64,000 bases of DNA from Effusibacillus dendaii (GTDB taxonomy: Bacteria > Bacillota > Bacilli > Tumebacillales > Effusibacillaceae). A program made the position numbers and the translations under genes. Location of the stretch: assembly GCF_015097055.1 (NCBI RefSeq), contig NZ_AP023366.1:906501-970500 (forward strand). Direction: 5' to 3'. The notes under the pieces were generated by a model, which did no database searches, had not been told where the DNA came from, and saw only the letters and a program-made list of their open reading frames with translations. Positions 6,840 through 53,308 of the stretch are shown piece by piece (the stretch's first letter is position 1; each line of letters starts with the position of its first letter).

Positions 6840-6878
6840 ATGGCAAATCCCCTTTCCCAGATTGATAGAATGATTCTC

Positions 6879-8678
6879 TTATTGTTTCTTGCACATATCA
6901 TGGCAGTCTTTTTCCAGGCTGCAACAGAGAGAGCAGACGGTTCCCTGATGGAACGGACAATACGTGATATCCTCCGGCTCATATTTGAAATGGCAGCAAG
7001 TGCAAAGAATTTCCGGCACCATATCGAGAGTTTCCTTCGGGAATCCAGACTGCCCGGTTTTTCTGCCAATTACAGTCCCTGCATCAACGGTTGCCGCAAG
7101 CGCTGCATGGACAGCCTTAGCTTCCGATCCTCCCGAAAGTGAAATCACCATTTTGCCGTCTTCACCTTTACGAATATAAGGATTCTCACGTGCAATGTAA
7201 TACTTTCCTTTCGTTGCAAGCGCTAGTATCGGTGACAACACGAACGCCAGCAGCAGCGACAAGAAAGGCGAGAACGCCTGCAGAACGGGGCCGAACACGT
7301 TAAAGAACGCCAGGATGGAGACGATCGATGCGATCATCATCGAACCGAATCCGACCGGATTGAAATTATGCAGATGTGCCCGTTTGAATTCGATGTAGGA
7401 GGGGCTGATTTTGAGAATCGCTTTGTTGATGACCAAATCGGCAACAACCGCTCCGATCCATGCAAGGGCAACGTTGGAATAAAATCCAAGCACATTGTTC
7501 AAAAATCCGAACAGTCCGAACTCCATCAACGTGATCGAGATCCCTACATTGAGAAACAGCCAGACAACCCGACCGGGATGGAAATGCAACAGCCGGGAAA
7601 AGAAGTTGGACCACGAAAGCGAACCGGAGTAGGCGTTTGTGACATTGATTTTGATCTGCGACAGGATCACAAAAAACGTGGCAATCGTAAGTGCAGCAAA
7701 TGCACCCGGAATAAATGTCTGAAATCCCATCTGGTACATATGGATCGGTTCATTTGCCGCCTGCAGCCCGACCGCAGGCGCCACATAGGCTGCCATAAAA
7801 GCGCCGCCCCATTGTTTGAATGCACCGAGGATCACCCAACCGGGACCCGCCAGCACAACGGCCCACCACCATTTGGATTTGTTTTTCGCCGTCTTTTCCG
7901 GCATAAACCGCAGATAGTCAACCTGTTCCCCGATTTGCGCGATTAAAGACAGGACCACACCAGCCGCCAAACCGAACATCATCGGATTGAACGATGCACC
8001 TGACGGTGAATTTCCGGCAAAATGGGTCCAGTTGGAAAAAGCGCCCGGATCTTTCACCAGTATCACCACAAACGGAAGCACCATCAAGGTAAGCCAGATT
8101 GGCTGTGTCCAGACCTGTAAACGGGCCAGGAATGTCATTCCAAAGATCACCATGGGAATGATAATGATCGACGAAACAAGATATCCAATTGCCAACGGCA
8201 ATCCAAAGTACAGTTCGAATGCCTGCGCCATGACGGCACCTTCAAGAGCAAAATAAATAAACGTAAATGACGCGTAAATCAAGGAAGTCAAGGTAGATCC
8301 CAAATATCCAAACCCTGCTCCGCGCGTCAACAGATCCATATCGATGTTGTACTTAGCCGAATAATACGCAATCGGCAAACCGGTCAAGAAGATAATGACG
8401 GCGGAAACAAGAATTGCCCAAAAAGAGTTGGCGAAACCGTATGAAACGGCAATCGAACCGCCTATGGCGAAATCTGCCAGATAGGCAATGCCGCCTATCG
8501 CAGAGCTGAAGACCGCATACTCGCTCCATTTACGGAAAGAACGTGGCGCATATCGCAGCGAATAATCTTCCAAAACCGGATTGTTCACCCATTTGTTAAA
8601 TGTGCGTTTCGGTTCGCTGTGTGTTCGCCCTCCCGTTTTTCCATGTTCCAAAATCACTTCGTTACTTCCCATACTCAT
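6879..8678 (-). CDS. NCS1-family permease with Cys-rich C-terminal tail
   Basis: A 599-residue nucleobase-cation-symport-1 type transporter with about 12 membrane segments (about residues 55-480); the N-terminal NPVLEDYSLRYAPRSFRKWS and RGAGFGYLGSTLTSL segments fit purine/cytosine permease-like members. It probably imports the amide or related nitrogen compound (inference from the operon). Unusually, after a 70-residue cytoplasmic linker it ends in a compact cysteine module: CTCC, then YCPF, CSLCCSL, and CHDMCK at the very end, likely a metal-binding knuckle. To my recollection similar modules join NCS1 domains to histidine kinase domains in some sensor proteins; here the protein stops right after it. 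Start 8678 was chosen for GGGGGAG upstream. Confidence 0.85.
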   Translation of the reverse strand: MSMGSNEVILEHGKTGGRTHSEPKRTFNKWVNNPVLEDYSLRYAPRSFRKWSEYAVFSSAIGGIAYLADFAIGGSIAVSYGFANSFWAILVSAVIIFLTGLPIAYYSAKYNIDMDLLTRGAGFGYLGSTLTSLIYASFTFIYFALEGAVMAQAFELYFGLPLAIGYLVSSIIIIPMVIFGMTFLARLQVWTQPIWLTLMVLPFVVILVKDPGAFSNWTHFAGNSPSGASFNPMMFGLAAGVVLSLIAQIGEQVDYLRFMPEKTAKNKSKWWWAVVLAGPGWVILGAFKQWGGAFMAAYVAPAVGLQAANEPIHMYQMGFQTFIPGAFAALTIATFFVILSQIKINVTNAYSGSLSWSNFFSRLLHFHPGRVVWLFLNVGISITLMEFGLFGFLNNVLGFYSNVALAWIGAVVADLVINKAILKISPSYIEFKRAHLHNFNPVGFGSMMIASIVSILAFFNVFGPVLQAFSPFLSLLLAFVLSPILALATKGKYYIARENPYIRKGEDGKMVISLSGGSEAKAVHAALAATVDAGTVIGRKTGQSGFPKETLDMVPEILCTCCHFKYEPEDITYCPFHQGTVCSLCCSLEKDCHDMCKKQ

Positions 8679-8805
8679 TGGTTTCTCCCCCTTTCTGTGT
8701 GCAGACATGCACCTTCTCATCCATTCTTTGGTAAGTGCCCGGCAACAGACCTATTGTCCACCTCTCCTGTCCGCAGGTTTCCCCCTCCTTTCTTCTCCTC
8801 TTCGG

Positions 8806-8846
8806 AAAAACAGAAAGAAGCCAGACGCATTAGGCGAGGCTTCTTT
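8806..8846 (-). terminator. Intrinsic terminator inside the amide operon leader
   Basis: On the minus strand AAAGAAGCC, a 15-base loop, GGCTTCTTT, then CTGTTTTT. It lies about 130 bases upstream of the permease start with no gene directly before it, so it looks like a leader attenuator rather than an end-of-gene terminator. A 5-bp hairpin with loop GATGAA (8853-8868) and a longer dyad CCTGTA/TACAGG (8869-8898) lie just upstream of it in the transcript. Confidence 0.7.
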
Positions 8847-9100
8847 GCCATTGACACTTCATCGTGTCCCTGTATTCTTCCTACATTCATCCTACAGGCA
8901 CTGCGAAACATTCGCTATTTCTTTTGTCAAGATTCCTGACAAAACGGAAACAACTTTTTCAAAGGCTATGTAAATAAATCCCGGCAATGTTATTTTCATA
9001 ATGAATTTTGATGCTGTGACTTCACGTCCCCGGTGCCACAATGCACTATGGAAGGAGTGCTATGCCAACGGGCAAAATGGCCTATGTTTTAGCTGTAATT
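8847..9100 (-). promoter_or_regulatory. Leader and promoter region of the amide operon
   Basis: No gene is seen. On the minus strand TTGACA occurs at 8930-8925 but no good -10 follows at 17 bases, so the promoter is uncertain. A dyad GCGAA-TGT-TTCGC (minus strand, about 8904-8916) could be a hairpin or a protein site. Confidence 0.4.
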
Positions 9101-9532
9101 TTAATTATTCTTACGGAGTGCTTCATTCTCAAGTTCGAGCAAAATTTCTTTAATAATGAGGAGTCGTTTGCGCAATACATACTTTCTATAAATTAGTATC
9201 GACACCAACACTACGTAACCAGTAATTACATAGATCAGAAATGTGAAAAAACTTGTAAAATTATTGGCCAATCCCTGTAGCAAATCTATTATAAAGTCGA
9301 TAGCGTTTCGAGTTTTGCCTGTTAAGTCACTAACTTGACCAATAACAGCGGGAATAATTGAGAAAATAGTGGTAAATATCATTAAAATAAACGGCATATA
9401 AAGACTCCCGAAAGAAAAATTAATTACTTTTGGAAATTGATCGTTAATGATGTCACTAGATTCATAAGTTATAGCTAATAATTTTAGCTCTGAGGGACTG
9501 TATGTCTTATAATGCCGTCTTAGCTTTTTCAT
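9101..9532 (-). CDS. Hypothetical membrane protein
   Basis: A 143-residue protein that I do not recognise. Two hydrophobic stretches (about residues 43-67 and 92-115) suggest two membrane segments joined by a loop (TGKTRNAIDFIIDLLQG), with a basic C-terminus (YRKYVLRKRLLIIKE) that should face the cytoplasm. The region is more AT-rich than its neighbours. The ribosome binding site is weak. It stands alone between asnB and the amide operon. Confidence 0.55.
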   Translation of the reverse strand: MKKLRRHYKTYSPSELKLLAITYESSDIINDQFPKVINFSFGSLYMPFILMIFTTIFSIIPAVIGQVSDLTGKTRNAIDFIIDLLQGLANNFTSFFTFLIYVITGYVVLVSILIYRKYVLRKRLLIIKEILLELENEALRKNN

Positions 9533-9740
9533 TCATAGCTATGATCTTTGACTCAACAAACTTAAGTAGCTTAGAGTACATTTTCACTGAATCCTTTAAC
9601 TTTATCATTTAATTTTATTCGTTGGTTGCAGACAACTTTCTCAAAGTACACGTATCCTGCATAGACCGTTTGATATTCCGTAAGCGGAGCGATTATTTCT
9701 GACAGCAACCAGCAATCTGACGTGGGTCTAGTCCCACAAG

Positions 9741-9762
9741 AAAAAACACCGCCAATCGGCGG
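9741..9762 (-). terminator. Intrinsic terminator after asnB
   Basis: On the minus strand CCGCC, loop GATT, GGCGG, then TGTTTTTT; it lies about 95 bases downstream of asnB. Confidence 0.75.
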
Positions 9763-9857
9763 CGCATCCCTTCTTACACTCAAATGCCCTACGTGATAAA
9801 ACTCTCGATCAACGTACGCTTATCTCAAACGTCCTTTCAACTCCCAACCGCTTTCCC

Positions 9858-11786
9858 TTATTCCCTGGCCCCAGCCAACTGCTTGCCATATGTTCTGCGC
9901 AGCTGTACATTTGGGCTGACGCTGCTTCCAATCTTGACCGACTGCTCCACATAGACCTGATGCCACAGCATGAAGATCAGAATCGTCCAGACTTTGCGGG
10001 AGTTGTCACGAACGTTGTTCCTGTGATCCTCCAACAACTGCATGACAAACGATTTATTAATCAAGTGGTCGACCGCGCTTGCATCGATCAGTTCCCGCGC
10101 CCAACGATAAAATTCGTCTTTCAGCCATTTACGCGTCGGAACCGGAAATCCCAGCTTCGGTCGCTCTGCCACTTCACGCGGCAGGATGTCTTTCACCGCT
10201 TCCCGCAGCACATATTTGGTAGTTCCGTTCATCATCCGGTATTGCATGGGGATTTTGGATGCGAATTCAAAAACTTCCTTATCCAAAAACGGCACCCGCA
10301 GTTCAAGCGAGTTGGCCATCGTCATCTTGTCCGCCTTCATCAGAATATCGCCGGTCAACCATGTATGAAAATCGACATATTGCATTTTTGTCACATCGTC
10401 ATAGTTGCGGGCCCTGTCGTAATAAACGCCCGTGATGTCAAACGGTCTGCGGCCGCCAATCTGTTCCGGTTTGTATGTCACGAACTGTTCCTTCATTCGC
10501 TCATCAAAAATAAACGCATTGCCGACAAACCGTTCCTGCACCGTCTTCGAGCCGCGCATCAGGAATGAGCGGCCTTTCATGCCCTCCGGCAAATACTCGG
10601 CCATAAGACCCAGCGAACGCCGCATCGACGGCGGAATCCGGTCAAACAATTTAAGCGACAGCGGCTCCCGGTAAATCGTATACCCGCCGAATACCTCATC
10701 GGCTCCCTCGCCTGACAGCACCACCGTGATATAGCGGGAGGCCAATTCCGCCACAAAATAAAGGGCAATCGCTGCCGGATCGGCGACCGGTTCGTCCTGG
10801 TAATACATCAGCTTAGGCAGTACGTCCAAATATTCTTTCGCGCTAATGATGGTGTCGCGGTGTTCCGTCCCAAGAATGCGGGCCGTTTCCCTGGCGTATT
10901 CGACTTCGCTTTGTCCGCCCGCTCCTTCAAAACCGACCGTGAACGTTTTTACCTGTTCCAACTCTTTCAGAAGGGCCACAATGGTACTGGAATCTACGCC
11001 GCTGGACAAAAATGCGCCGCGCGGCACATCCGAATTCATATGCGCTTTGACTGAATTGCGCAAAACTTCCCGTGTGCCTTCAATATAGTAGGACAGCGGT
11101 TGATCGCCTTCCGTAAATTCAACCTGCCAGTAGCGCTGTATATCGATTTTCCCGTCTTGGATAATCATATAGTGAGCCGCCGGCAATTTCCAAATATCCG
11201 CAAACATCGTCATCGGATCAGGCGCATACTGAAATGTCAAATAGTTCCAGAACGACTCCAGGCTCACTTCCCGTTTGACGCCTGGCACCTGCAGCAGACA
11301 TTTGATTTCCGATCCAAATGCGATGATGTCATCCGTTTCCGTATAGTACAACGGCTTAATGCCAAAATGGTCGCGCGCTACCATCACCCGGTTGTGACGT
11401 GAATCCCAGATCGCAAAACCGAACATGCCGCGCAAATCTTTTACGCAGTCCGGCCCCTTTTCTTCATACAGGTGGACAATCGCTTCCGTGTCCGATTCGG
11501 TCCGGAACTGATGACCGCGATCGATCAGCCAACGGCGGATTTCCTTGTAATTATATATTTCTCCGTTAAATGTGATCCAAACCGTTCCATCCTCGTTCGA
11601 GAGTGGTTGGTGACCTCCTTCCAGATCAATAATGGAAAGGCGACGGAATCCCAAGCCGACAGGACCATCAAAATGAACACCCGTATCGTCCGGTCCACGG
11701 TGGACAATCTGATCGGTCATTCGTTCCAAAACAGTTTGCTCGGCAGGACTCCCGTTTTTCGTCACCATGCCACAAATTCCGCACAT
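9858..11786 (-). CDS. asnB: Asparagine synthetase (glutamine-hydrolysing)
   Basis: A 642-residue class II glutamine amidotransferase that makes asparagine from aspartate, ATP and glutamine. The start is fixed by the MCGICG motif: Cys2 becomes the N-terminal nucleophile, so the ATG at 11786 is used rather than the open frame to 11801. The glutaminase domain (about 1-190) shows HRGPDD and FNGEIYN; the synthetase domain shows the SSGVDSS pyrophosphate loop, SGEGADEVFGGY and RVPFLD. The length fits the longer AsnB type of Bacillus. Single gene with its own terminator. Confidence 0.95.
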   Translation of the reverse strand: MCGICGMVTKNGSPAEQTVLERMTDQIVHRGPDDTGVHFDGPVGLGFRRLSIIDLEGGHQPLSNEDGTVWITFNGEIYNYKEIRRWLIDRGHQFRTESDTEAIVHLYEEKGPDCVKDLRGMFGFAIWDSRHNRVMVARDHFGIKPLYYTETDDIIAFGSEIKCLLQVPGVKREVSLESFWNYLTFQYAPDPMTMFADIWKLPAAHYMIIQDGKIDIQRYWQVEFTEGDQPLSYYIEGTREVLRNSVKAHMNSDVPRGAFLSSGVDSSTIVALLKELEQVKTFTVGFEGAGGQSEVEYARETARILGTEHRDTIISAKEYLDVLPKLMYYQDEPVADPAAIALYFVAELASRYITVVLSGEGADEVFGGYTIYREPLSLKLFDRIPPSMRRSLGLMAEYLPEGMKGRSFLMRGSKTVQERFVGNAFIFDERMKEQFVTYKPEQIGGRRPFDITGVYYDRARNYDDVTKMQYVDFHTWLTGDILMKADKMTMANSLELRVPFLDKEVFEFASKIPMQYRMMNGTTKYVLREAVKDILPREVAERPKLGFPVPTRKWLKDEFYRWARELIDASAVDHLINKSFVMQLLEDHRNNVRDNSRKVWTILIFMLWHQVYVEQSVKIGSSVSPNVQLRRTYGKQLAGARE

Positions 11787-11851
11787 GTAGAATTGCCTCA
11801 CTTTCTGAAGTACAAGCTATTTTTTAAGTGTAGCGGGTTTAAGAGACCCCG

Positions 11852-12361
11852 TCAACGCAAAGGAAATGCAGGATTTGCGAGCAATTCCCGAACTGCTGCG
11901 TCAATATCGCCGGACGTCGTGTCAATTTGGATATCTGCCTCGTTGTACAATTCGGCCCGTTCCTTCAAAAGCCGGTCAATGCGCTGCTCCAGTTCATCGC
12001 CTGCCAGCAGCGGGCGGTTTCCCTGACGCGCCACTCGATCCCGAATGACGTTTCGATCTGCCGTCAATGAAATCACAATACCCGATTTTCTCATTAACTC
12101 GCGGTTTTCCGAACGGAGTACCATGCCTCCACCGGTCGTCACCAGAATACGTTTGCGGAGAGCCAATTCCTTTAACAATTCCGTCTCCCGGTCACGAAAA
12201 TACGCTTCCCCCTCCGACGCAAAAATCTCCGGAATGGTGCGATTTTGCCGTTTGACGATTTCCTGGTCCGTATCGATCCACGGCCAGCCAATCCGCTGCG
12301 ACAATACTCTGCCAAGCGTCGACTTGCCCGTCCCCATAAACCCAATCAGATAAATATTCAA
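11852..12361 (-). CDS. aroK: Shikimate kinase
   Basis: A 169-residue P-loop kinase that phosphorylates shikimate in the chorismate pathway. Visible are the Walker A GFMGTGKST at residues 8-16, the shikimate-binding DTDQEI, FRDRETELL and GGGMVLR, and the lid Arg in RQGNRPLL. The open frame extends to 12544, but the family begins at NIYLIGFMG, and a TTG at 12361 with GGGGGAT upstream gives the right length. It stands alone, not in an aro operon. Confidence 0.92.
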   Translation of the reverse strand: MNIYLIGFMGTGKSTLGRVLSQRIGWPWIDTDQEIVKRQNRTIPEIFASEGEAYFRDRETELLKELALRKRILVTTGGGMVLRSENRELMRKSGIVISLTADRNVIRDRVARQGNRPLLAGDELEQRIDRLLKERAELYNEADIQIDTTSGDIDAAVRELLANPAFPLR

Positions 12362-13371: not shown

Positions 13372-14098
13372 GTCATAACCACCGGCTTAGTCGGTGGCTT
13401 CCGTCAGCCCTATAAGGGCATGTTACAAGCAAGCGCCTCAAAGGCGCACTGAAAGTCTGCCAACCGCGTGTTACCACAGGCTAGCCCCTGAAAAAGGGCC
13501 TCTTTACACGCCCTTTTTCACCGACTCACCCGTAAACGGGTCGATCAGTTCTTTCATCGTTAGTTGTTCATAATTCTTGTCCTCCACTAGCTGGTTACGG
13601 ATGTATTCTTCAATCACTTTCTTATTTCGCCCCACCGTATCCACATAGTACCCTCTGACCAGAATTGACGGTTACCATACCGGTACTTCATATTCGCAAA
13701 CTTATCAAAAATCATCAGCGAGCTTTTTCCCTTTAAATAGCCCATAAACTCCGGTACACTTAGCTTGGGCGGGATACTCACCAGCATGTGAATATGATCT
13801 GGGCAGGCTTCTGCTTCGACGATCTCCACTCCTTTTCGTTCGCATAGCTCCCGTATAATCTTTCCGATCTCTCTTTTTAATTTCCCGTATATGACTTGTC
13901 TTCGGTACTTTGGCGCAAACACGATGTGATATTTGCAGTTCCATTTGGTGTGTGCTAGACTGCTTTTGTCCATCCCTTGTCCTCCTTGATTGATGGTAGC
14001 GGTTGGCAGACCGGCTCCCATCTTATCATTGGGTTCAAGGGATGACTACTTATAGCTATAAGCTTTCCTGAACCCCCAGTCGAACTGGGGGTTTTCTT
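13372..14098 (-). mobile_element. IS200/IS605-family element, degenerate
   Basis: About 730 bp with no terminal inverted repeats, but with subterminal hairpins as expected of IS200-type elements: CCACCG/CGGTGG (13379-13397) at one end, and a 10-bp stem AACCCCCAGT/ACTGGGGGTT (14071-14093) at the other. It contains a frameshifted tnpA and no tnpB. Exact ends are estimated. Confidence 0.8.
13504..13973 (-). pseudogene. tnpA: IS200 transposase TnpA, frameshifted
   Basis: A Y1 HUH transposase. The HUH motif is visible (DHIHMLVSIPP), together with HIVFAPKYRR and the start MDKSSLAHTKWNCKYH. After GNRQFWS one base is missing (near 13665), so translation leaves frame before the region that should read YVDTVGRNKKVIEEYI, which includes the catalytic-Tyr helix. 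The correct reading resumes in the next frame and ends at 13504. The element cannot move unless helped in trans. Confidence 0.85.
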
Positions 14099-20605: not shown

Positions 20606-22471
20606 TTATTTCAAAGTTTTCGCCAGGAAGGCCGCAAACTCTTCCCGGGTAACCGGCTGATCCGGCTTGAATGTGCCGTCGGGGTACCCGCTTGTTATTC
20701 CGTTTGCCGCCAAAATCCCTATCGCTTTTGCTCCCCAATGGTTCTGAATATCTTTGAAGTTGTTAACAGGCGTTCCTTGAAGCTTAAATGCCCTGACCAG
20801 GATGGATGCCATTTCTGCACGAGTTAAAGTGGAACCGGGATTAAACTTGCCGCCATATCCGGCAAAAATCCCTTCGTCCATGACTGCAGCAATCGCCGGG
20901 TAGTAGATGCTTTTCGGATCCAAATCGGAAACATTCGGAGCCGGACGATTGTTTGTACCCAATCCAAGCGCCCTCACCAGCAAACTTGCACTTTGTTCCC
21001 TCGTGATCTGCTGAGTCGGTTTAAACGTTCCGTCCGGATATCCGCTAATGATATGCTTGCTTACCAGCGTATCAATCGACGGTTTTGCCCAATATCCCGC
21101 CGGTACGTCGGAGAAACTGATAACCGGAGTAGCCGGAGTAGCCGGAGTAGCCGGAGTAGCCGGAGTAGCGGCGGTATTTATCGTAATATAGTCACCGTAC
21201 ACCCACCCTGTCTGGGTGCCGTTTTGTACCTTGTACCAGTTGCCTGTTCCTTTGCCAATTGCCGTAAGTTCAGTTCCCAGCACCAATTTTCCCAGGATAT
21301 TAGCCGACGTAGAGGGCAGTTCACGGAAATTCACTTCATCCTTTGTCACTGCTTTGGTTCCTGCCGGAAAAGTTTGTGTAAGCTCTGTTGAAACCGGAAC
21401 TACGATCGGCTCAGCCGGTTTCGCTGCCCTCACAGCCATGACGGAGACACCCATGTATTCAGCCTGGTTATACGTATGGATTCGCGCCATAATACCACTT
21501 ATTTTTTCCGACCAATAGGGATCGGTGGCATAGTACTTGTTCATCCCCATTAACGTGGAGGAACCACCATACCATCTTCCGGACGGATTTAGATAGCTTG
21601 TTGCTATGAAATACGCGAGATAATCTATGTTATGCTCAACAGATGTAAAGGTGGCCGCACTTCCGTATGGATCGGAATCATACGCACGGTAGCCAAACAG
21701 GTTATTCTTGTCTTTTGCAATGGGCGATTCCCCATAATCGCTTTCCAAAATCGCGTGAGCAGCCAAATATAGCGCATTGACGCCATATTTACTTTGAGCG
21801 TTAATGAACAGTTGTCCCTTCCCAATCAAAGGACTGGTGGGCCGATTGGTCTGAATAAAATTATCAATGTCAGCCGCCTGAACTTTTGCAGGAAACCGAA
21901 GATCTAATGCAACATAGGGAGGGGTGTAGGTTCCCACCAACTGATCTCCGTCAGCCGCCCGGCGATAGAATTGGTAGTTCACATCCCGAACATAAATAGT
22001 ATTGGTTTGAAAATTGGCAGGTGCCGGCCCTACATAAAAGGAAGCCGTACGGACTAAAGGAGTCCCCAGAACATGATACAAAATGCCATCCCGAACTTCA
22101 TAAAAATTAGGTCCAGTTGGATATTGATTGATTCGAAACACGTTGGGGTTGTCTGTTGTTTTCGGTATGATATAATCACCGGACACCCATCCGGTGGTAT
22201 TTCCGACTTGCACCTGATACCAATTTTGATCATTTCGGCTAAGCAGTTTGACAACGGTTCCGGCTTGCAGTTTGTCAATCACCGGAAAATCGGTCCCAGG
22301 ACCGGTTCGGAAATTCACCTCTTCCGTAATGACTCCTTGTGTTCCTGCCGGTAAACTCCCCATCGTTTGCGAATCTGCAGCGTGTACGGCTCCAACAAAT
22401 GACGCTTGGATGCCCGATACGGCCAGTACAGCACTTAGTGAGAATACGCGCAGGGGTCTTTTTAAATTCAT
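20606..22471 (-). CDS. Secreted SLH-domain glucosaminidase with SH3 domains
   Basis: A 621-residue wall-associated hydrolase. In order: signal peptide (about 1-32, ending VGAVHAADS), bacterial SH3 domain (about 45-103, NFRTGPGTDFPVIDKLQ), a middle module (about 110-190), a glucosaminidase domain (about 210-340, with AHAILESDYGES bearing the likely catalytic Glu, and NNLFGYRAYDSDP), a second SH3 domain (about 378-432), a Pro-Ala-Thr linker and three SLH repeats (FSDVPAGYWA, VSDLDPKSIYYPAIA, FKDIQNHWGAKAI) that anchor to secondary wall polymer. It probably trims peptidoglycan glycan strands. The SD AGAGGTAT precedes the ATG. Confidence 0.9.
   Translation of the reverse strand: MNLKRPLRVFSLSAVLAVSGIQASFVGAVHAADSQTMGSLPAGTQGVITEEVNFRTGPGTDFPVIDKLQAGTVVKLLSRNDQNWYQVQVGNTTGWVSGDYIIPKTTDNPNVFRINQYPTGPNFYEVRDGILYHVLGTPLVRTASFYVGPAPANFQTNTIYVRDVNYQFYRRAADGDQLVGTYTPPYVALDLRFPAKVQAADIDNFIQTNRPTSPLIGKGQLFINAQSKYGVNALYLAAHAILESDYGESPIAKDKNNLFGYRAYDSDPYGSAATFTSVEHNIDYLAYFIATSYLNPSGRWYGGSSTLMGMNKYYATDPYWSEKISGIMARIHTYNQAEYMGVSVMAVRAAKPAEPIVVPVSTELTQTFPAGTKAVTKDEVNFRELPSTSANILGKLVLGTELTAIGKGTGNWYKVQNGTQTGWVYGDYITINTAATPATPATPATPATPVISFSDVPAGYWAKPSIDTLVSKHIISGYPDGTFKPTQQITREQSASLLVRALGLGTNNRPAPNVSDLDPKSIYYPAIAAVMDEGIFAGYGGKFNPGSTLTRAEMASILVRAFKLQGTPVNNFKDIQNHWGAKAIGILAANGITSGYPDGTFKPDQPVTREEFAAFLAKTLK
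21124..21168. repeat. Five 9-bp tandem repeats coding the Pro-Ala-Thr linker
   Basis: CCGGAGTAG repeated five times without error (minus-strand coding GGCTACTCC in register, giving Ala-Thr-Pro units). It can expand or contract in steps of three residues. Confidence 0.9.
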
Positions 22472-22510
22472 ACTGGATACCTCTCTTAGATAGCTTGATA
22501 ATTAGATAGA

Positions 22511-22523
22511 TTCTCTAAGAGAA
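22511..22523. promoter_or_regulatory. Short palindrome upstream of the SLH gene
   Basis: TTCTCTAAGAGAA, symmetric about its centre, 40 bases upstream of the start. It could be an operator or a 5' mRNA hairpin; no known regulator assigned. Confidence 0.35.
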
Positions 22524-22548
22524 TGGAAAATCCTTTTATTAACCAGTC

Positions 22549-22672
22549 TTACTCAATCCATTTCTTTTTCAGCTTGTCAAACTCACCTTTCAGAGCCATT
22601 TGTTCCATCCAGAGATCAATCCAATTTTCAAAGATCGTGTCCCCTCGATTCATCAAATTGGAAATAAAAATT
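22549..22672 (-). pseudogene. Solute-binding protein (family 3), C-terminal remnant
   Basis: About 40 codons reading ISNLMNRGDTIFENWIDLWM and ending in LKGEFDKLKKKWIE and a stop match the last helix pair of periplasmic family-3 amino-acid-type binding proteins. Nothing of the rest of the gene is present. It is fused, in another frame, to the end of the GGDEF remnant. Confidence 0.6.
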
Positions 22673-23451
22673 CGTGACTGCCAACAACGAGAGGCTGTTG
22701 AAACGCTTCAGTAATGTGCCGGACCCTCCTGACCACCTCTTTTTCATCAGTAACTTGCGTCAAAAGCAGGGCAAACTCGTCACCACCCCACCCACACGGG
22801 CAACAATATCCTCTTTGTTTACACGGCTTTTAAGTCGTTCGGCAACCCCCTGTAACAGCTGATCGCCGACAGAATGGCCCAAACTTTCGTTTATGCTCAT
22901 GAAACGATCCAAATCTACGAGCAGAACCACCAGCATTTGTTTTCGCTCTTTTGCGTTATCCAGTTGAAATGACAGATTCTGAAACAAAGCCCGGTTGGGC
23001 AGACCGGTCAGGGCATCATGGTGGGCCTGATACACGATCCGCTCCTCATAACGTTTTCGGTCGGTAACATCTGTGAAGGTGGCGGCATAGTGCGTAATTT
23101 TTCCTGTTTCGTCGACGACGGCGCTGATAGTCAGCCATTTCGGATAAATCTCGCCGTTCTTGCGGCGATGCCAAATTTCCCCCTGCCACTTTCGGTATCG
23201 CGAATCGCAGCCCACAGATTGGCATAAAATCGGGTGCCCTGTCGTCCACAGTTCAGAAAACCAGGTTTTTGACCCACCACTTCTTCTGCTCTATAGCCTG
23301 TAATTGCGGTAAACGCAGGGTTCACATGTTGAATGTTACCCGCCGCGTCGAGAATGATAATTCCTTGCAGCGTAGTTTCGTACACTTGGCTGGCAAGTTG
23401 CAGTTCCTCCGCGCTGAGATTAATGGGGATGTTGTCTGACCGAACTTCCAT
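22673..23451 (-). pseudogene. PAS-GGDEF diguanylate cyclase, frameshifted and truncated
   Basis: The gene starts normally (MEVRSDNIPINLSAEELQLA) with a PAS domain (GIIILDAAGNIQHVNPAF) and then shifts frame near 23190. It continues with PAS/PAC (GEIYPKWLTISAVVDETGK), then DALTGLPNRALFQ and DLDRFMSINESLGHSVGD. At the active site, after VARVGG, a few extra bases (near 22787) break the frame inside GGDEF; the third frame then gives DEFALLLTQV and runs to about 22680, where the gene is truncated. Catalysis should be lost. Confidence 0.8.
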
Positions 23452-23678
23452 ACGAACTCTCCTTATCTATCTGATGATGCAAATTGTTCTTATTACGAGT
23501 TCAGAATACATAGTTGGAAAAAGTTTCGAACATAAGGGAATTCCCTGAAAATAATCGTGAAAATACCCGATATTTGTCCAATTTCCTAATTTATCGCGTT
23601 TTTAGAGTATAAAAAATCCGCTATTCATGCGGATCATCATGATTCCAATATTTTTGTGACTTGACTCATTCTTGCTCC

Positions 23679-44731: not shown

Positions 44732-46987
44732 CTATCTTCGTAAATTATTGCTCATCAGAACTTCCATAACTCGCCGACCTGTTATCTCATCTATCCAGTT
44801 TACTCCAATTAAAAATTCTTTACCGGATGGCTGAGCATATACCACTCGACCGATCAATATTTGATAAATATGAGGTAAAGCCACCGCCACTCCGTCCCCG
44901 GGTTTGCATGTCCGCACATTTCCTACACGCAACTGACACCCCTGTAGACTGACATCGTGAATCTCTCCAGGCCGCATAGCCGTCATACGCAGGTCCCTGT
45001 TGAAAGAATCGAAATTTGCCGCCGCCGCTTCTTCGACTGCCAATAAAGTAACGGCGGGCAGTAATTGCACTTGGCAGTCAATATTTGTTTTGATCCTTTG
45101 GGACTTTCGATTTTTTGGTCTGTATAGAAATTGAAAGTGCTTAAAGTACTCTAAAAATACAGAAATAGAGTTGCTGCCTCGTTGGAGTTGGAAACTTGTC
45201 TTTTCGGGTTGGGTGCCGTAAAGCTCTCTTATCCACCGTTGATAATCTCTTAAGTTCAGTGGTTCAAATTGGATTCCCGCTTGAAACCCTTCGGGGTGCA
45301 AATCAAAATGGACAATTGTCCCCTGAAATTCATGAGTTTCTTGGCCATACATAATCAGTTTCAGACTCTTCGACAAAGGAATTGGATGATTCAACAATAT
45401 ACGGCAGCCGTCCTCGCTTATATTGATCGTGGTTCCGGAGATCTCAACTCCTTCTGTTTCCACAACTATTTTGTAGGATCGTTCAAATCGTTCTGTATTT
45501 CTCATTCGCGGACGTTCCCATCCCAACATAATGGACACCACCAGTCCGATGAGGTTATAGACGGACCAAAACAGATTAATCAACACAGATTCTTTTACTT
45601 GTTGATCCGTTCCCTGTAGTAGAATAAATAATCCGATTATGATTCCAAGTACGGAAATTGCTAAAAAGACAAGATGCGGAATAACAAGCTCTTTGTGAAA
45701 TTTAGTTTGACCGGCTGTAACACCTTTTGGAGTCACACGGAATGGTATAGGTTTTCGTGTAAAGGTCTCTACCAGGATAGCCCAAGAAATTGCCGGTGCC
45801 ATAGCTGTGTCGTAGACATGGCTCCAAAACCGATCCCTCACTTTGTTGGTGCAAACTCGAAACACGATACCTGATAAAATAAAGTGAGGCAACCAAAACC
45901 CTAACAATCCACTCAGAGTTGTGTTCAAAACTGGAATGCCAAATATTAAAAATAGCAAAGGCGCCGAGATGAAAATCATCTTCCCGATCCCAGAGTACCA
46001 ATACACAAACGAAGTCATGTATAAGATTCGTTGCATCAAAGATAATCCTTCGATACACAGGGGATTCCATTTCCGAACCGTCTGGATGGTTCCGCGTCCC
46101 CAACGAATTCTCTGTTTTAAAAGGTCAGGCAAGGACTCGGTTGCCAATCCCTCAGCCAACACTTCATTGAGAAACACAGTCCTGTAACCTTTGGCTTGTA
46201 AAAGCATACCGGTAGCGAAATCCTCGGTGATGGTGCCAGTTGCAAATCCACCGATTGAATCAATCGCACTACGGCGAAAAACTGCATTGCTTCCTGCATA
46301 AATGACAGCATTAAATCGGTCTCGCCCCGCCTGAATCACTCTCATGAACAAATCCTGCTCGTTTGGAATGCTCCTGTTTTGGAACAAGTTAAACTGGAAG
46401 ATGTCTTCGTTATAAAAAGACTGGGGGGTTTGAACAAAGGCAACACGGTGAAACTTAAAGAATCCTGCGGTACGTTTCAAAAACTCCGGTTTTGGAATCA
46501 TGTCGGCATCAAGAGTGACCAAAAGTTCCCCTTTGATGTGTGTAAGAGCATGATTTAGATTACCCGCTTTCGCGTGTTCGTTGGATGGGCGAGTGAGATA
46601 TCCAATTTCTAACTCTTCAGCAAGTAATCGTACCTCTTCGCGTCGTCCATCGTCGCAGATCCAAATATGAAGAAACTCACTTGGATAATCCAAGTTTTTG
46701 CAGGCTGCTGCGGTTTTTTTAAGGATTTCCACCGGCTCATTATAAGTGGCTATCAATACATCCACTGTCCACAACTGGTCGGGAAGGGAGGGTGGTTGTC
46801 TATCGGTCGGGTCGAAGATGATTAAGTAAAAAATAGTGCTTTGTATCGCTTCAATTACTTCAACTAGAAGAAGCAACATTGCAAAGATAATGGCATAACC
46901 GTTCGGGAGAGTATAAAGGATTCGCCATCCTATATACACCCACATGGCAATTAACGAGGAAAGAAGCAGAAGTACACGAATCATCAT
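44732..46987 (-). CDS. BcsA-like glycosyltransferase with two PilZ domains
   Basis: A 751-residue membrane GT2 of the cellulose-synthase type. Two N-terminal helices, then the catalytic domain with IATYNEP, the first Asp in CDDGRR, DAD in TLDADMIPK, TED in TITEDFATG and QRIRWGRG, then four or more helices (to about 475). Two c-di-GMP-type domains follow: PilZ1 with Arg before NISEDG (about 540), and PilZ2 with RKSQRIK and DVSLQG (about 640-690). It probably polymerises a beta-glucan or other polysaccharide on c-di-GMP binding. No bcsB, C or Z gene is nearby. Confidence 0.88.
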   Translation of the reverse strand: MMIRVLLLLSSLIAMWVYIGWRILYTLPNGYAIIFAMLLLLVEVIEAIQSTIFYLIIFDPTDRQPPSLPDQLWTVDVLIATYNEPVEILKKTAAACKNLDYPSEFLHIWICDDGRREEVRLLAEELEIGYLTRPSNEHAKAGNLNHALTHIKGELLVTLDADMIPKPEFLKRTAGFFKFHRVAFVQTPQSFYNEDIFQFNLFQNRSIPNEQDLFMRVIQAGRDRFNAVIYAGSNAVFRRSAIDSIGGFATGTITEDFATGMLLQAKGYRTVFLNEVLAEGLATESLPDLLKQRIRWGRGTIQTVRKWNPLCIEGLSLMQRILYMTSFVYWYSGIGKMIFISAPLLFLIFGIPVLNTTLSGLLGFWLPHFILSGIVFRVCTNKVRDRFWSHVYDTAMAPAISWAILVETFTRKPIPFRVTPKGVTAGQTKFHKELVIPHLVFLAISVLGIIIGLFILLQGTDQQVKESVLINLFWSVYNLIGLVVSIMLGWERPRMRNTERFERSYKIVVETEGVEISGTTINISEDGCRILLNHPIPLSKSLKLIMYGQETHEFQGTIVHFDLHPEGFQAGIQFEPLNLRDYQRWIRELYGTQPEKTSFQLQRGSNSISVFLEYFKHFQFLYRPKNRKSQRIKTNIDCQVQLLPAVTLLAVEEAAAANFDSFNRDLRMTAMRPGEIHDVSLQGCQLRVGNVRTCKPGDGVAVALPHIYQILIGRVVYAQPSGKEFLIGVNWIDEITGRRVMEVLMSNNLRR

Positions 46988-46996
46988 ACTATTTTC

Positions 46997-47221
46997 TCAA
47001 ATTTTTCCTTTGATTATGATTTGGATTTTTTCAACAATCGTTGCAGATTTCGCAATTTCCTTTATAACGTCCAACTGCAGCTGGGTATTCATATAGAGGG
47101 TTTTGATATATGTTTCTCCGGTTTGTTTACAATGAGGACAGCTGCACTTTAAAGCATGGTTACTCAGAAATAGTTCCAAAAGATCCTGCACAATCATTTC
47201 CGTTGCATTGACTAGGAACAT
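46997..47221 (-). CDS. ComFB-like small protein
   Basis: A 74-residue protein resembling ComFB: ATEMIVQDLLELFLS, a Cys pair CSCPHC and YIKTLYMNTQLQL. ComFB-family proteins are reported c-di-GMP receptors in other bacteria. It lies 9 bases upstream of the BcsA-like gene, which makes a signalling or accessory role for glycan synthesis likely. The start at 47221 follows GGTGGTGGG. Confidence 0.7.
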   Translation of the reverse strand: MFLVNATEMIVQDLLELFLSNHALKCSCPHCKQTGETYIKTLYMNTQLQLDVIKEIAKSATIVEKIQIIIKGKI

Positions 47222-47417
47222 AAACCCACCACCCACTCGATCAAATCTTATTACATTCAACAGAATATGACAATAAGCCGATAATTCACCGCTAATACCT
47301 CATCTCTGACTGATATCGAAACGAATCAAAGGATCTTACGGATCTCTGCAAAGGGTGACTTCAATCATTTGGGCAGCTTGTTCCTGTAGAATGAGAAAAG
47401 TCCCTCAATCCATGATT

Positions 47418-48614
47418 TCAGGGAAAACTGTAAAGCCGATAATTATTTTTTCCCTGCTCTTTCGCCCGGTACATAGAGATGTCCGCACGTTTCAGTAAGG
47501 TGTCAATATCTGCACCATTATCCGGATACAGAGCAATTCCAATGCTCGTGGTGATTTGAAATGTGTGTCCTTTGATCATGAAGGGTTGTTCGAGTATTTC
47601 AAGAATTTTTTGGGCCACTTTAATTGCGTCTTGCACTTCCGCAATTTCAGGCAACAACAAGGTGAATTCATCTCCCCCGATCCGCGCTATGGTATCCTTC
47701 TTACGGACACAGCCTTTTAAGCGCTCAGTAACGGCTTTTAATAACAGATCTCCCAGGTCATGCCCTAGGGAGTCATTGATTATCTTGAAGCTATCCAGAT
47801 CGAGAAAAAGCACGGCCATCATATGGTGATGGCGTTTGGCATGAGATAACGCCAGGGCAGCCCGATCTTCAAACAGTCGCCGGTTGGGAAGATCGGTCAA
47901 AGGATCATGATAGGCCAAATGGTTCACAATTTCTTCGATGCGCTTACGCTCTGTGATGTCGCGGGCAATAGTGAAGACCACTTTTTCCCCGTTTAAGGTT
48001 AAGACGCGAGCGCTGCTTTCCACAGGCAGTTTGTGCCCATTTTGGGCGACATAGCGCCACTCGAATGTTACATGATCTTTTTCGATCAACTCTTTTTTGA
48101 TTGTTGGCATCTCAACGAGGCATTCCGGATCTGTAATGTCCCTGGGGGACATGGATAACAGTTCTTCTCTGGTATAACCCAATTTTTGGCATGTTACGTC
48201 GTTTACCTCAAGGAATCGGGGTTTACGATCCACTGTCAGTTCATACAAGAAAATGAGATCATTCGCATGGTGAAAGAGTTCACGAAATTTAATTTCAGTC
48301 TCTTGCAACGCCTCCTCAGAACCCAAAAGTTGTTTCTTTACCATCTCAATGTCCTTCCATCTGCGTAAACAAAAGGCAAATAAGCCTATTGATAGAATTA
48401 TAAAAAAATATAACCACGCTTGGATGAGCTCAAAACTCATACCGAATAAAAAAACCGATAAACATATCACAGCAATTACGGCAATATCTCTGTTTGCTTT
48501 CTGTTTGAGTTGTCTAATTATTTTAGTCACCCCCATCCGCTTCGAAAGTAATTTTGCCATACTCCTACTCACTATCCTTGGGATTCTTCCAAACCAACTT
48601 ACCAAGTAAATCAA
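47418..48614 (-). CDS. PAS-GGDEF diguanylate cyclase
   Basis: Up to 398 residues. Two membrane segments near residues 44-90, a PAS domain (ELFHHANDLIFLYE, DVTCQKLGYTREELL) and a GGDEF domain (DPLTDLPNRRLFED, DLDSFKIINDSLGHDLGD, RIGGDEFTLLLP). The product-inhibition site RxxD is present as RKKD five residues before GGDEF. It makes c-di-GMP. The start is uncertain between 48614 and 48560. It follows the response regulator gene by 23 bases. Confidence 0.9.
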   Translation of the reverse strand: MIYLVSWFGRIPRIVSRSMAKLLSKRMGVTKIIRQLKQKANRDIAVIAVICLSVFLFGMSFELIQAWLYFFIILSIGLFAFCLRRWKDIEMVKKQLLGSEEALQETEIKFRELFHHANDLIFLYELTVDRKPRFLEVNDVTCQKLGYTREELLSMSPRDITDPECLVEMPTIKKELIEKDHVTFEWRYVAQNGHKLPVESSARVLTLNGEKVVFTIARDITERKRIEEIVNHLAYHDPLTDLPNRRLFEDRAALALSHAKRHHHMMAVLFLDLDSFKIINDSLGHDLGDLLLKAVTERLKGCVRKKDTIARIGGDEFTLLLPEIAEVQDAIKVAQKILEILEQPFMIKGHTFQITTSIGIALYPDNGADIDTLLKRADISMYRAKEQGKNNYRLYSFP

Positions 48615-48637
48615 TCAATGGATGTCTACGATAGAGT

Positions 48638-49339
48638 TTAATGATCCTCAACTAAAAATTTGTAGCCGAACCCCCTGACTGTTTGAATATATTTGGGATT
48701 CGCAGGATCTGATTCAATCTTTCTACGCAGATTACTGATATGAACCATGACAGTTCGTAGATTACTATCGCTGTCCCATCCCCATATATTTTCGTAAAGT
48801 TGTTCTACACTAAACACCTGATTCGGATGTTCAATAAGAAAAAATAGCAATTGACGCTCTTTGATGGACAGTGGAACCGAATGACTCTGAAACTTTACAT
48901 CGTAGCTTTGTAAATCAAATTCCAAGTCGCCGTATCTCGCTATATGATCCTTACTGTGAAGATTATGGCGTTTTAACGCACGGCGAAGATTGGCTTTTAC
49001 TCGTGCTACAACAATTCTCGGATCAAATGGTTTTGTAATATAATCGTCCGCACCTGTATCTAACCCCAAAATAATATCGTCCGAACCTCTCTTGACGCTT
49101 AATATAATAATCGGGACATCTGAACCTTTTCTAATTTCCCGGCATATTTCCACACCATTCGTGTCCGGCAATGATAGATCCAAGATGATCAGATCGGGGC
49201 GTTCTTGTTTAACCACTTCAAGAGCTTGATGTCCGTTATCGGCATAAAAAATCTGGTAACCATTTTTTTCCAAATATAGTTGAATCAGTTCCCCGATTTC
49301 TTTTTCATCGTCTACGATTAAGATTTTTCCTTCTTCCAA
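48638..49339 (-). CDS. OmpR-family response regulator
   Basis: A 233-residue regulator. Receiver domain ILIVDDEKEIGELIQLYL with the phosphorylated Asp in LIILDLSLPDTNG and Lys in DYITKPFDP; winged-helix output domain ending RRKIESDPANPKYIQTVRGF. The start is a TTG at 49339 with AAGGAGG, inside the kinase gene (22-base overlap), so the two are coupled. Confidence 0.93.
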   Translation of the reverse strand: MEEGKILIVDDEKEIGELIQLYLEKNGYQIFYADNGHQALEVVKQERPDLIILDLSLPDTNGVEICREIRKGSDVPIIILSVKRGSDDIILGLDTGADDYITKPFDPRIVVARVKANLRRALKRHNLHSKDHIARYGDLEFDLQSYDVKFQSHSVPLSIKERQLLFFLIEHPNQVFSVEQLYENIWGWDSDSNLRTVMVHISNLRRKIESDPANPKYIQTVRGFGYKFLVEDH

Positions 49340-51447
49340 TTAAGTACCTCCTTACTGTTATCATGTTCGGAGACAGAACTTACAGGAAGTATGAAGTAAA
49401 AGGTGCTTCCCTGTCCTAATTGACTGTCAACCCCAATTTCACCTTGATGATATTCAATAATTTCCTTTGAGATGGCGAGCCCTAGCCCAGCACCTTTATA
49501 CTGTGCATTTCGGTGTGCGGCGGCTTTATATAACCGTTCAAAGATGTAGGGTTGCTCTTCTTCCGGAATTCCTTTTCCCGTATCGGCTATTTTAACAACG
49601 ACAAAACTGCCGGACGGCGTTCGATGTTCAAACGTGACTTGGATGCGAATCATTCCACCGGGAGGAGTAAATTTTTTGGCGTTAAAAAGCAAATTCACAA
49701 ATACCTGTTCGATGCGATCCGGGTCTATGTAAACTGTTGCATTGCAATTCTTCAGGGAATCAGGGATACTTAATTCAAAATGAAGACCTTTTTCTTTCAC
49801 ATCCCATTCATATTTATAGAAAAGGTGCTGCACGAATTTCATGATTCGAATCTCTCGAAGATTAAACTTAATTTCTCGTGTTTCCAACTTTGTTAATTCC
49901 AGAAAATCCTCAAATATTCGCTCCAGAAAGTTGACTTTTGCATAGATCAGATTCAAATACTTTCGGTCGCCCGCCTGTATGATCCCGTCTATCATCGCCT
50001 TGATATACCCTTTAATGGAAGTGAGAGGAGTTCCTAATTCATGCGAAATATTGGATAACATTTGACGGCGTGATTCCTCTGATTTGATGAGCCGCCGGTT
50101 TGTTTTTTGCAATTCTGCATTCAATTGTTCCAGAGCCATAGTTCTTTTTTGAACTTTTTCCTCCAACAACTCATTCATTTGTTGTAATTGATATGACAGT
50201 TTCTCTGCGTTTTTGAATGCGTTTAAGAACTTTACCGTCAAATGAAACGACTGTACCAACAAATAACATAACAACCCCCAAGAAACTAAAAGTCCTGTTG
50301 CCAGAACATGCGCGTAATACAAAATATCGTTTAAAACGGCTAAAAAGAGAATAAATCCGCCTATGCAACTCAGTAGTGAACCTTCTCTTTTGCGAATGAC
50401 GGCCCATACCATAACGTTAATGATATAAAGGAAGTTGGCTGCAACAAACATTTCGAATGTTGTCAAGAAATTGGTATAGATCCTTGCGGGTGTCACAAGA
50501 ACCGACATGCAGATCAAAGCCCCTATGTATAGCGAGAGATTTCGGACCTTTGTATGAAACTCTAAAGGATATTGGGATTGGAAAAACAAAATCGCGAACA
50601 ACGCCCCAAGAATTGGTGTGCAATACTCTAACTTTACTGCAATCTCCCAACTCAAGCCCTGAAATAACGAAACGGCGTAGGTATTACCTGTAACGAGCGT
50701 TCTTACAGCAATAGCCAAACAAAACGTACCGAAATAAAAAGTCGATTTGTCCTTGTTCCATACTGACAGTAAATAAAGATAGATGCTCATGATCAATAAA
50801 ATGCCTGCTACAAACAATTCCGAGGCTATGTTTTTGATTCTTTGCCGAGTAATTTGGTTTTCATTGCCGAACTCAATGAAATCCCATAAACCGCCTTTTC
50901 TCTGAACAAAATTGGAAACTTGCATCACGAGTTCGATTCGATTGGTGTTCGGGGTAAAATAGATAGTCTCGGAATAATTCTTTGGCACCATTTCCTCTCT
51001 ATTTTTCCCTACAATTCCTACCGACGTGATAAGCTCCCCATTGATCCACAGCTTGTATGCGGTGGCAACATTATGGATATATAGCGCCTTAGTTTTCCCC
51101 AGATCTTGTGTTCCGATTTCTATGGTTAGCCGATAGGTTGCATATCCTAGATTGGACAGCGGCCGATAACCCGTGGAATAAACTTTCCATTCATTCGGTA
51201 CATCAGCATACTGCTTTGAAAAAAGGGCCATCGGTGATCGCAAGTCATCCGGTTCTAATAACTGGTTCCAATAGAATTCCCATTCCCCATTAAGTCTCAC
51301 GATCCCCTGTTGATCAAAATCCCAATGAGATAAATCCAGTTTGCCCATGACAGCATAGGGGGCTTTCGGCTCTCCCATTGCGATTGTACTTTGTACGTTG
51401 CCGAGAAATAAACAAATCAAGATGAACAATCCAGATATGATCCTCAT
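49318..51447 (-). CDS. Sensor histidine kinase with 7TMR-DISM input
   Basis: A 709-residue kinase. Signal sequence, extracellular jelly-roll DISMED2-like domain (about 30-190, EWEFYWNQLLEP and YKLWINGELI), seven membrane helices (about 205-395), a coiled coil, HisKA with SHELGTPLTSIKGY, and HATPase with NLLFNAKKFTP, DTGKGIPEEE and GAGLGLAIS. Such receptors often sense carbohydrate-like ligands (family inference). The start at 51447 follows GAGGG. Confidence 0.9.
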   Translation of the reverse strand: MRIISGLFILICLFLGNVQSTIAMGEPKAPYAVMGKLDLSHWDFDQQGIVRLNGEWEFYWNQLLEPDDLRSPMALFSKQYADVPNEWKVYSTGYRPLSNLGYATYRLTIEIGTQDLGKTKALYIHNVATAYKLWINGELITSVGIVGKNREEMVPKNYSETIYFTPNTNRIELVMQVSNFVQRKGGLWDFIEFGNENQITRQRIKNIASELFVAGILLIMSIYLYLLSVWNKDKSTFYFGTFCLAIAVRTLVTGNTYAVSLFQGLSWEIAVKLEYCTPILGALFAILFFQSQYPLEFHTKVRNLSLYIGALICMSVLVTPARIYTNFLTTFEMFVAANFLYIINVMVWAVIRKREGSLLSCIGGFILFLAVLNDILYYAHVLATGLLVSWGLLCYLLVQSFHLTVKFLNAFKNAEKLSYQLQQMNELLEEKVQKRTMALEQLNAELQKTNRRLIKSEESRRQMLSNISHELGTPLTSIKGYIKAMIDGIIQAGDRKYLNLIYAKVNFLERIFEDFLELTKLETREIKFNLREIRIMKFVQHLFYKYEWDVKEKGLHFELSIPDSLKNCNATVYIDPDRIEQVFVNLLFNAKKFTPPGGMIRIQVTFEHRTPSGSFVVVKIADTGKGIPEEEQPYIFERLYKAAAHRNAQYKGAGLGLAISKEIIEYHQGEIGVDSQLGQGSTFYFILPVSSVSEHDNSKEVLNWKKEKS

Positions 51448-51770
51448 AGGATGACCCTCATACACAATATTGTATACGCTAGGAAACAGACTAAAAACAT
51501 TGATTTAAATGAAAAGCAATGTAATCGATACGTCCATTTGCCCGCTAATACACAGAAATTAGTATTAAATTGATATCCCAAATCGGGTATGAGAATATCT
51601 GGATAGCTGGATATCGGAATTGTCGGTGCTTAAACAAGGAATACTTGTTTCTAAAATAAACGTTGACGACCATCCATACGTTTTCTCGTTCCTTTGTTTA
51701 TATCAAGTCAATAATGGATGAATTCCGCCCCCTTGTGACAAAACCCTCATTTAAAAAAGTTGTGATTCAC
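51448..51770. other. Intergenic region before the kinase
   Basis: About 320 bases between the HD-GYP stop and the kinase start. AT-rich, with an inverted-repeat-like GATATCC...GGATATC stretch near 51590-51615 but no clear promoter or terminator. Confidence 0.4.
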
Positions 51771-52595
51771 CTAAGTGAAGGGGCTTCCTATATGAACAGC
51801 AGTATCTTTTGATAAGTCAATAAACTGGTTTCCTACTTGAACCAATGGATTTGCCGGGTCATATTGGTTAATCAGGATCACCTTCGCCTGTCTTCCATTC
51901 GTTAGTGTTACATACTCTCCTACCATTTGTTCCATTATTTTCTGTATGAAAGTGAGTGTTATTGTCCCATCGAGCTGTCCAAATCCCCCTTCCCTCATCT
52001 CCGAAATTACCTGATAAAAGGGTCTTGCTTCGTGATAAGTGCGTTTTGATGTCATTGCATGAAAAACATCAGCAACAGCAACGATTTTGCTAAACGTGTC
52101 GATATGCTCTCCCGTTAATCCAGCCGGATACCCGCCTCCATCTTCACGTTCGTGGTGCTGCAACGCAACAAGAGCCACTCTATGTGGGATTCCTTTACTA
52201 TTTTTAAGAATGTTGTAACCATATTGAGCGTGTTTCTTGATTAACCTGTATTCAATATCGGTTAACCGTCCGGGTTTGTTAAAAATCTCAAGAGGAATCT
52301 TTACCTTTCCTATATCATGTAAAGTTGCGGCTAGGGTTAAATGAGACAGATCGGGTTCGTCAAGATTCAACCACTTTCCGATCAGCGTTGCGATTACACC
52401 CACAGCGATATTGTGACGATATGTATAGTCATCTTTGGATTGCAATTCTGCAAGAAGCTTAAATACACCAGTATTTTCTGTTGCTTGCTTGATTGCAGGG
52501 ATGATATCTGACGTTATTTGATCTATAGGAACATGTTCCGAGCTGTGGAGGGAGAGAAAAATCTCCTTGATTTGTTCGGTTGCTTCGTTTATCAA
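51771..52595 (-). CDS. HD-GYP phosphodiesterase
   Basis: A 274-residue stand-alone HD-GYP domain. The metal motifs are HDIGKVKIP and HHEREDGGGYPAGL, followed by AVADVFHAMTSKRTY. It breaks down c-di-GMP. The start overlaps the PilZ gene stop by 4 bases (ATGA type), so the two form a bicistron. Confidence 0.9.
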   Translation of the reverse strand: MINEATEQIKEIFLSLHSSEHVPIDQITSDIIPAIKQATENTGVFKLLAELQSKDDYTYRHNIAVGVIATLIGKWLNLDEPDLSHLTLAATLHDIGKVKIPLEIFNKPGRLTDIEYRLIKKHAQYGYNILKNSKGIPHRVALVALQHHEREDGGGYPAGLTGEHIDTFSKIVAVADVFHAMTSKRTYHEARPFYQVISEMREGGFGQLDGTITLTFIQKIMEQMVGEYVTLTNGRQAKVILINQYDPANPLVQVGNQFIDLSKDTAVHIGSPFT

Positions 52596-53308
52596 TCTTT
52601 CACCTTCCCTCCACCTAAATCCCGAAGCTCAATTTGACGCCGATATACAAATTTGACAATAGTGCGCTGATCGTTTACAGATACGTTCATGAATTTAAAT
52701 GCACATAATTTTGTATTTGCCTGCAACGGATTTGAACGAACCTGAACAAGCTGGGCATGTATAGCAAACTGAAATGCTTGTTCTTCAACTTGTATCTGAA
52801 ATTGAAGAATGACGCTTTTGCCAGCATCCATGACGATATTCTCATTTACGAGAACAGCGATTCCCTCTCCGGATATATTTTGGGCTGTTCCCGTTCCCAA
52901 GAATTGGTTTTGAGTACTGGTACCGGCCGTAAGTATTTCAACAGGAAAAGTAACTGGTACACGTACATAGTCACGCCGTTGGATTCTGTGAATTATTTTC
53001 GGTTTTTTCACATGCATCAGACCGGGTTGAATCGATAGGACCTTCGTTTCAAAACAATAGGGTATCCGCTCCTCAAAATCTGTATAGGATACAATCATAC
53101 TGGTATCCGGGCTAAAATATCTTGGAGTTCGTGTTTGCAAGCTGACGGGGAGCTCGAAGTCAAGACTGTCTGTATTCATATTTAAAAAACGTGAATCATA
53201 CTTGCCCTTATAAGGTCCTTCAGGAACGTGAAGATACAGATATTGCCCAATATCAGGCAGTGCCATCCTTTTTTCCTTATTCATTGTCAATTCATCCAGA
53301 TCGATCAT
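52592..53308 (-). CDS. YcgR-type PilZ protein
   Basis: A 238-residue protein with an N-terminal YcgR-like domain (GPYKGKYDSRFLNMN) and a PilZ domain with RRDYVRVPV and NISGEGIAV, the c-di-GMP motifs. YcgR proteins slow flagella or bind other targets. First gene of the HD-GYP bicistron. Confidence 0.88.
   Translation of the reverse strand: MIDLDELTMNKEKRMALPDIGQYLYLHVPEGPYKGKYDSRFLNMNTDSLDFELPVSLQTRTPRYFSPDTSMIVSYTDFEERIPYCFETKVLSIQPGLMHVKKPKIIHRIQRRDYVRVPVTFPVEILTAGTSTQNQFLGTGTAQNISGEGIAVLVNENIVMDAGKSVILQFQIQVEEQAFQFAIHAQLVQVRSNPLQANTKLCAFKFMNVSVNDQRTIVKFVYRRQIELRDLGGGKVKD

Follow-up and report, generated by a model that had tools for sequence, protein, structure and literature searches.

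Gene content and layout of the cluster

Between positions 44732 and 53308 of the window (the whole stretch of 64,000 nt analysed here, NZ_AP023366.1 positions 906501-970500, from a single contig of 3,454,394 bp) the minus strand carries seven ORFs, all co-directional, of which Pfam names six without doubt, the exception being a short ComFB-like ORF. Read in the direction of transcription, they begin with a YcgR/YpfA-type PilZNR-PilZ protein (52592..53308) and an HD-GYP phosphodiesterase of 274 aa (51771..52595). After these come a 7TMR-DISM histidine kinase whose extracellular domain resembles a beta-sandwich (49318..51465), an OmpR-type response regulator (48638..49339, Pfam Response_reg and Trans_reg_C) with a TTG start after AAGGAGG, a membrane-anchored PAS-GGDEF diguanylate cyclase (47418..48614), the ComFB-like ORF of 87 aa with an internal deletion (46997..47260) and a BcsA-like GT2 polysaccharide synthase of 751 aa (44732..46987). 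The strain, skT53, is a thermophilic, acidophilic soil spore-former described as Effusibacillus sp. and later as E. dendaii (PMC8297450; PMC8502169). Its genome was obtained from PacBio RS II reads assembled with FALCON, with no polishing mentioned (PMC8297450), so single-base indels have to be read with care.

The pilZ and HD-GYP genes overlap by 4 bp and the kinase and regulator genes by 22 bp, while the spacing is 23 bp from regulator to cyclase, 157 bp from cyclase to the ComFB-like ORF and 9 bp from there to the synthase. The pilZ/HD-GYP pair is separated from the five-gene run by a gap of 305 bp (51466..51770) that is likely a second promoter region; no promoter-like match was found within it, and the promoter and terminator scans gave results at or below chance. 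The overlaps, the gap and the spacings together make at least two transcription units likely. Control by a c-di-GMP riboswitch was rejected on a scan at the Rfam gathering cut-offs, which gave no such riboswitch in the 64-kb window. At 13974-14093 (minus strand) the Rfam family STnc490, an Hfq-binding sRNA family, scored just above its cut-off in this Gram-positive genome.

Four c-di-GMP genes are found in these 8.6 kb where 0.06 would be expected by a rough Poisson estimate (based on ~24 c-di-GMP genes in 3.45 Mb, the HD-GYP share being a first-look candidate count), and their clustering exceeds chance. The genome has ~10 further GGDEF loci. Outside the window, GGDEF and PilZ matches lying ~0.5 kb apart (G000:C1:2159825-2161149) make up a second small c-di-GMP pair, and within it, at 22400-23600 on the minus strand, there is a broken PAS-GGDEF gene with the PAS and two GGDEF halves in three frames.

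The synthase and the c-di-GMP proteins

The synthase (Pfam GT2 and PilZ) aligns with the PDB BcsA structure 7lby (E=1e-98), and the two correspond at DxD, TED, QRIRW, the gating loop FRVTPKG and the residues of PilZ1. It carries the whole BcsA motif set (DxD, TED, QxxRW, FxVTxK gating loop, PilZ RxxxR and N/DxSxxG), and it scores 493.4 bits on TIGR03030, below the curated equivalog cut-off of 699.1. A sequence-only reading of this DNA had given the enzyme two PilZ domains. The first (~aa 490-590) is clear, and its predicted fold has a pLDDT of ~80-90. The second (~aa 620-745) is divergent and borderline for Pfam (22.1 bits, 22.5 with neighbours); it carries RKSQR and DVSLQG at a distance ~25 residues longer than in PilZ1, and its structure prediction was of low confidence and was not used. 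In a pattern search the RxxxR/DxSxxG pair appeared twice in this synthase and in three homologues (L009, L041, L042), which are its closest relatives among those built in this way; the remaining homologues are extended at the C-terminus, and in most of them no second motif pair can be clearly made out. A search of a limited body of literature found no report of a BcsA with tandem PilZ domains, which is weak evidence. From its motifs, c-di-GMP probably switches on this cellulose-synthase-like enzyme, and the divergent second domain allows testing whether an extra PilZ tunes activation.

No BcsB or other bcs-like gene was found among the annotated ORFs at 37.9-60.2 kb, nor were polymer-export, hydrolase or acetylation genes seen among the annotated neighbours of the cluster. 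Synthase homologues in Bacilli often adjoin GH5, GH10, GH26 or MBOAT genes. In four such loci (L042, L046, L009, L048) the hydrolases or modifiers beside the BcsA-like gene (GH10, GH5, GH26, MBOAT) differ, a hint at different polymers.

The cyclase matches Pfam PAS and GGDEF (PF00990, E=1e-54; RKKDTIARIGGDEF in the sequence) and has a hydrophobic N-terminal stretch, the GG(D/E)EF motif and an RxxD I-site. The I-site had been predicted from the start, and RKKD indeed stands five residues ahead of GGDEF (RKKD-TIARI-GGDEF). The HD-GYP protein (Pfam HD, HD_5), aligned to the solved PmGH (4mcw), keeps HD and HHEREDGGGYP (HHExxDGxGYP) intact, with a Tyr in place of one Glu of PmGH. It is missing 50-103 N-terminal residues present in 20/20 relatives read, the catalytic domain being whole. 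In the kinase 7TMR-DISM_7TM, HisKA and HATPase all score over the Pfam cut-offs. Maker, breaker, sensor and a predicted c-di-GMP-responsive synthase are co-located here with their motifs intact, as the sequence-only reading had proposed.

The YcgR-type protein has PilZNR and PilZ over cut-off, with RxxxR and NxSxxG, and scores only 21 bits against 400 on the narrower NCBIfam YcgR equivalog. Among solved structures it is closest to B. subtilis YpfA/MotI (5vx6, E=4e-11), a motility brake. The two share the PilZNR-PilZ architecture, RIQRR..R and NISxxG over a whole-length match; here, however, the gene is paired with an HD-GYP gene and the role in motility is putative.

The ComFB-like ORF falls under both the Pfam and the NCBIfam cut-off (no Pfam match at 1e-3; PF10719 at 14.6 bits against a 25-bit gathering cut-off; NCBIfam 23.4 against 120); the low scores are due to the loss of the central part of the domain. 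A comparison with 400 Bacilli genomes gave two separate matches (query 9-46 and 45-78), which lie ~16 residues apart in the target, and a profile built from homologues splits identically, with model positions 34-50 absent. The deletion, of about 18 residues, follows CSCPHC. In an alignment with 45 homologues 14 columns are conserved at ≥90%, and 6 of them (D, A, L, N, L, Y) belong to the lost block. In addition, the homologue profile places a frame departure at a run of A (47023..47038, minus strand), after which a different frame has to be used to read the conserved end ..VEKNPxH and the C-terminus of the ORF is off-frame with respect to homologues; either a mutation or a sequencing error may be responsible. 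Cyanobacterial ComFB binds both c-di-AMP and c-di-GMP (PMC12313861). With the ComFB/CdgR c-di-NMP receptor the ORF has in common the N-terminal helix, CxCxxC and the C-terminal helix region, and it differs in being without the ..DI.A.ALN.LPP.YV.. block (PMC12313861). Judged by these losses it is probably a dead or altered receptor. No second ComFB was found in this genome, and intact ones exist in two congeners (G001, G003). In one of these (L115, G003 contig 7) the gene lies between HD-GYP and 5TMR-LYT GGDEF genes, a different c-di-GMP grouping.

Of the seven-member c-di-GMP module first proposed all members are present, six by Pfam; the ComFB-like one lacks the middle of its domain. The claim of three receptor types is weakened as well, since the best-conserved block of ComFB is gone and the YcgR-type protein is closest to a motility brake, while the motifs of the PilZ proteins are present; the receptor count is probably one below the first reading. 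Naming a domain by a partial motif can overstate such a count. It seems very improbable to us that the shortened ComFB is alive as a dedicated small partner, subunit or adaptor, of the tandem-PilZ synthase, in which case sensor, cyclase and synthase would form a new unit, each synthase having two PilZ switches.

Occurrence, base composition and decay

A conserved gene order had been set beforehand as a check, and its absence as one half of what would refute the first reading; in the genomes sampled the search went against that order, since none of the 22 BcsA, 9 kinase, 20 HD-GYP and ~45 ComFB loci read shows all seven genes in this sequence, though pairwise links recur. GGDEF genes adjoin BcsA in 4/22 loci, and an HD-GYP, 7TMR kinase, ComFB or YcgR-type PilZ gene stands beside BcsA in none of the 22. 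HD-GYP adjoins a PilZ gene in 4/20 loci. Of the 45 ComFB loci, roughly 9 include GGDEF or HD-GYP at a distance of up to ~5 kb and 2 include a 7TMR kinase, counts without a matched background that are only suggestive of a real association. The ComFB gene is directly downstream of the 7TMR-DISM kinase gene in two loci of one family (L246, L247; G143, G047). The synthase has homologues in 22 other genomes of 400 Bacilli, at identities of up to 45%; it is absent from three congeners, and no full-length homologue was found in other genomes of the order.

These data bear on whether the cluster is one system or two unrelated neighbours, a pilZ-HD-GYP pair for motility and a kinase-regulator-cyclase-synthase run for the polymer, sharing only the common c-di-GMP pool. 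HD-GYP with a YcgR-type PilZ stands alone in three loci (L161, L170, L171) and the 7TMR kinase with an OmpR-type regulator in two (L124, L125), which fits two units, as do the 305-bp gap and the resemblance of the PilZ protein to YpfA/MotI. However, both units are of low G+C and on the same strand, and in a genome of another Bacilli family (L174, G176, 4878-11896) a 7TMR-DISM hybrid kinase, a BTAD-type regulator, HD-GYP, GGDEF and PilZ are united in one run, without BcsA. We consider two independent units rather unlikely.

No other 10 kb of the window is as low in G+C as the cluster (41.3% against 48.22% for the genome), and GC3 is 0.35-0.46 in the seven genes, compared with 0.47-0.60 in those flanking genes that were measured. 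Low G+C together with the patchy occurrence suggests that the cluster was acquired. No mobile element or empty insertion site was found. In the congener G002 the counterpart of the transporter that flanks the cluster (81% identity) stands among other genes, with no site readable, and a plasmid or phage origin was rejected, plasmids having only remote BcsA and viral contigs nothing.

The island might also be in the course of being lost, the circuit no longer working as a whole. The deletion and frame change in ComFB, the missing N-terminus of the HD-GYP protein, the broken PAS-GGDEF relic at ~22.4-23.5 kb of the window and the absence from congeners would all agree with such a decay. Six of the seven ORFs nevertheless retain complete catalytic or binding domains and intact motifs, and the frame change at the A run may be a sequencing error (PMC8297450), so that we regard a circuit already broken by decay as improbable.

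A possible circuit and its relation to known systems

The reading that we prefer, with a probability of about one half, is that of an acquired, c-di-GMP-controlled, synthase-dependent polysaccharide locus in which a sensor acts through a regulator and a cyclase on a PilZ1-gated synthase, with the HD-GYP enzyme as brake and ComFB inactive or altered. The 7TMR-DISM kinase would respond to a ligand outside the cell, which may plausibly be a carbohydrate, by phosphorylating the OmpR-type regulator, which would drive its own gene run of kinase, regulator, cyclase, comFB remnant and synthase. The membrane PAS-GGDEF cyclase would then produce c-di-GMP, its output limited by the I-site, and binding to PilZ1 of the synthase would open the gating loop, so that the enzyme could make and secrete a cellulose-like beta-glucan. 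The adjacent HD-GYP enzyme would degrade c-di-GMP, and the YcgR/YpfA-like protein may read it, perhaps slowing motility; ComFB would contribute nothing now, or only in altered form. Of all this, the sequence shows which genes are there, their order and overlaps, the motifs, the ComFB deletion, the rarity of the arrangement and the base composition, while signal, regulon, c-di-GMP binding, polymer and acquisition are inferred.

In favour of this circuit are the intact domains and motifs, the overlapping kinase/regulator and pilZ/HD-GYP genes, the spacings of 9-23 bp, the pairwise associations in other Bacilli and the five-function set of L174. Sensing of carbohydrates by a 7TMR-DISMED2 domain has been reported for NicD (PMC8544897), and the low GC3 and G+C and the absence of the synthase from congeners argue for acquisition. 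Against it are an arrangement seen in no other sampled genome, the 305-bp gap between two units, the lack of a BcsB-like, hydrolase or acetylation gene nearby and of an empty site or mobile element, and the damage to ComFB, a sign that the locus may be eroding. The self-contained circuit first suggested is not supported, given the probable two or more transcription units, no accessory polymer gene seen nearby and the numerous further GGDEF genes that the genome contains. The gene grouping is real and unusual, and made of known kinds of genes. Our best reading is a beta-glucan synthase locus that was acquired, is under c-di-GMP control and has eroded in part, of a kind already known and of unusual composition. 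If the circuit works in this way, it would be a compact Gram-positive locus with sensor, cyclase, phosphodiesterase and synthase together, convenient for testing local c-di-GMP signalling.

With BcsA of R. sphaeroides and E. coli (PDB 4p02, 7lby) the synthase shares the GT2 core, TED, QxxRW, the FxVTxK loop and a C-terminal PilZ with RxxxR and N/DxSxxG, and differs in its score below the TIGR03030 cut-off, the extra divergent PilZ and no bcs gene seen alongside. The nearest row in the synthase tree (support 93/90, not starred) is that of Paenibacillus algorifonticola (L009), whose enzyme is 49% identical in the best segment and likewise has RxxxR and DxSxxG in each of two PilZ domains; unlike here, the polysaccharide cluster around it contains GH26, Wzz and nucleotide-sugar genes and none of the other six genes. 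We know of no two-component system in the Listeria pssA-E or B. subtilis ydaJKLMN operons, which are c-di-GMP-linked exopolysaccharide operons of Firmicutes. Both have in common with this cluster a c-di-GMP receptor and a GT2 synthase in a Gram-positive bacterium (PMC4125290; PMC7064775). The receptor of both operons is a degenerate GGDEF protein, whereas in E. dendaii the predicted receptor is a PilZ domain fused to the synthase itself.
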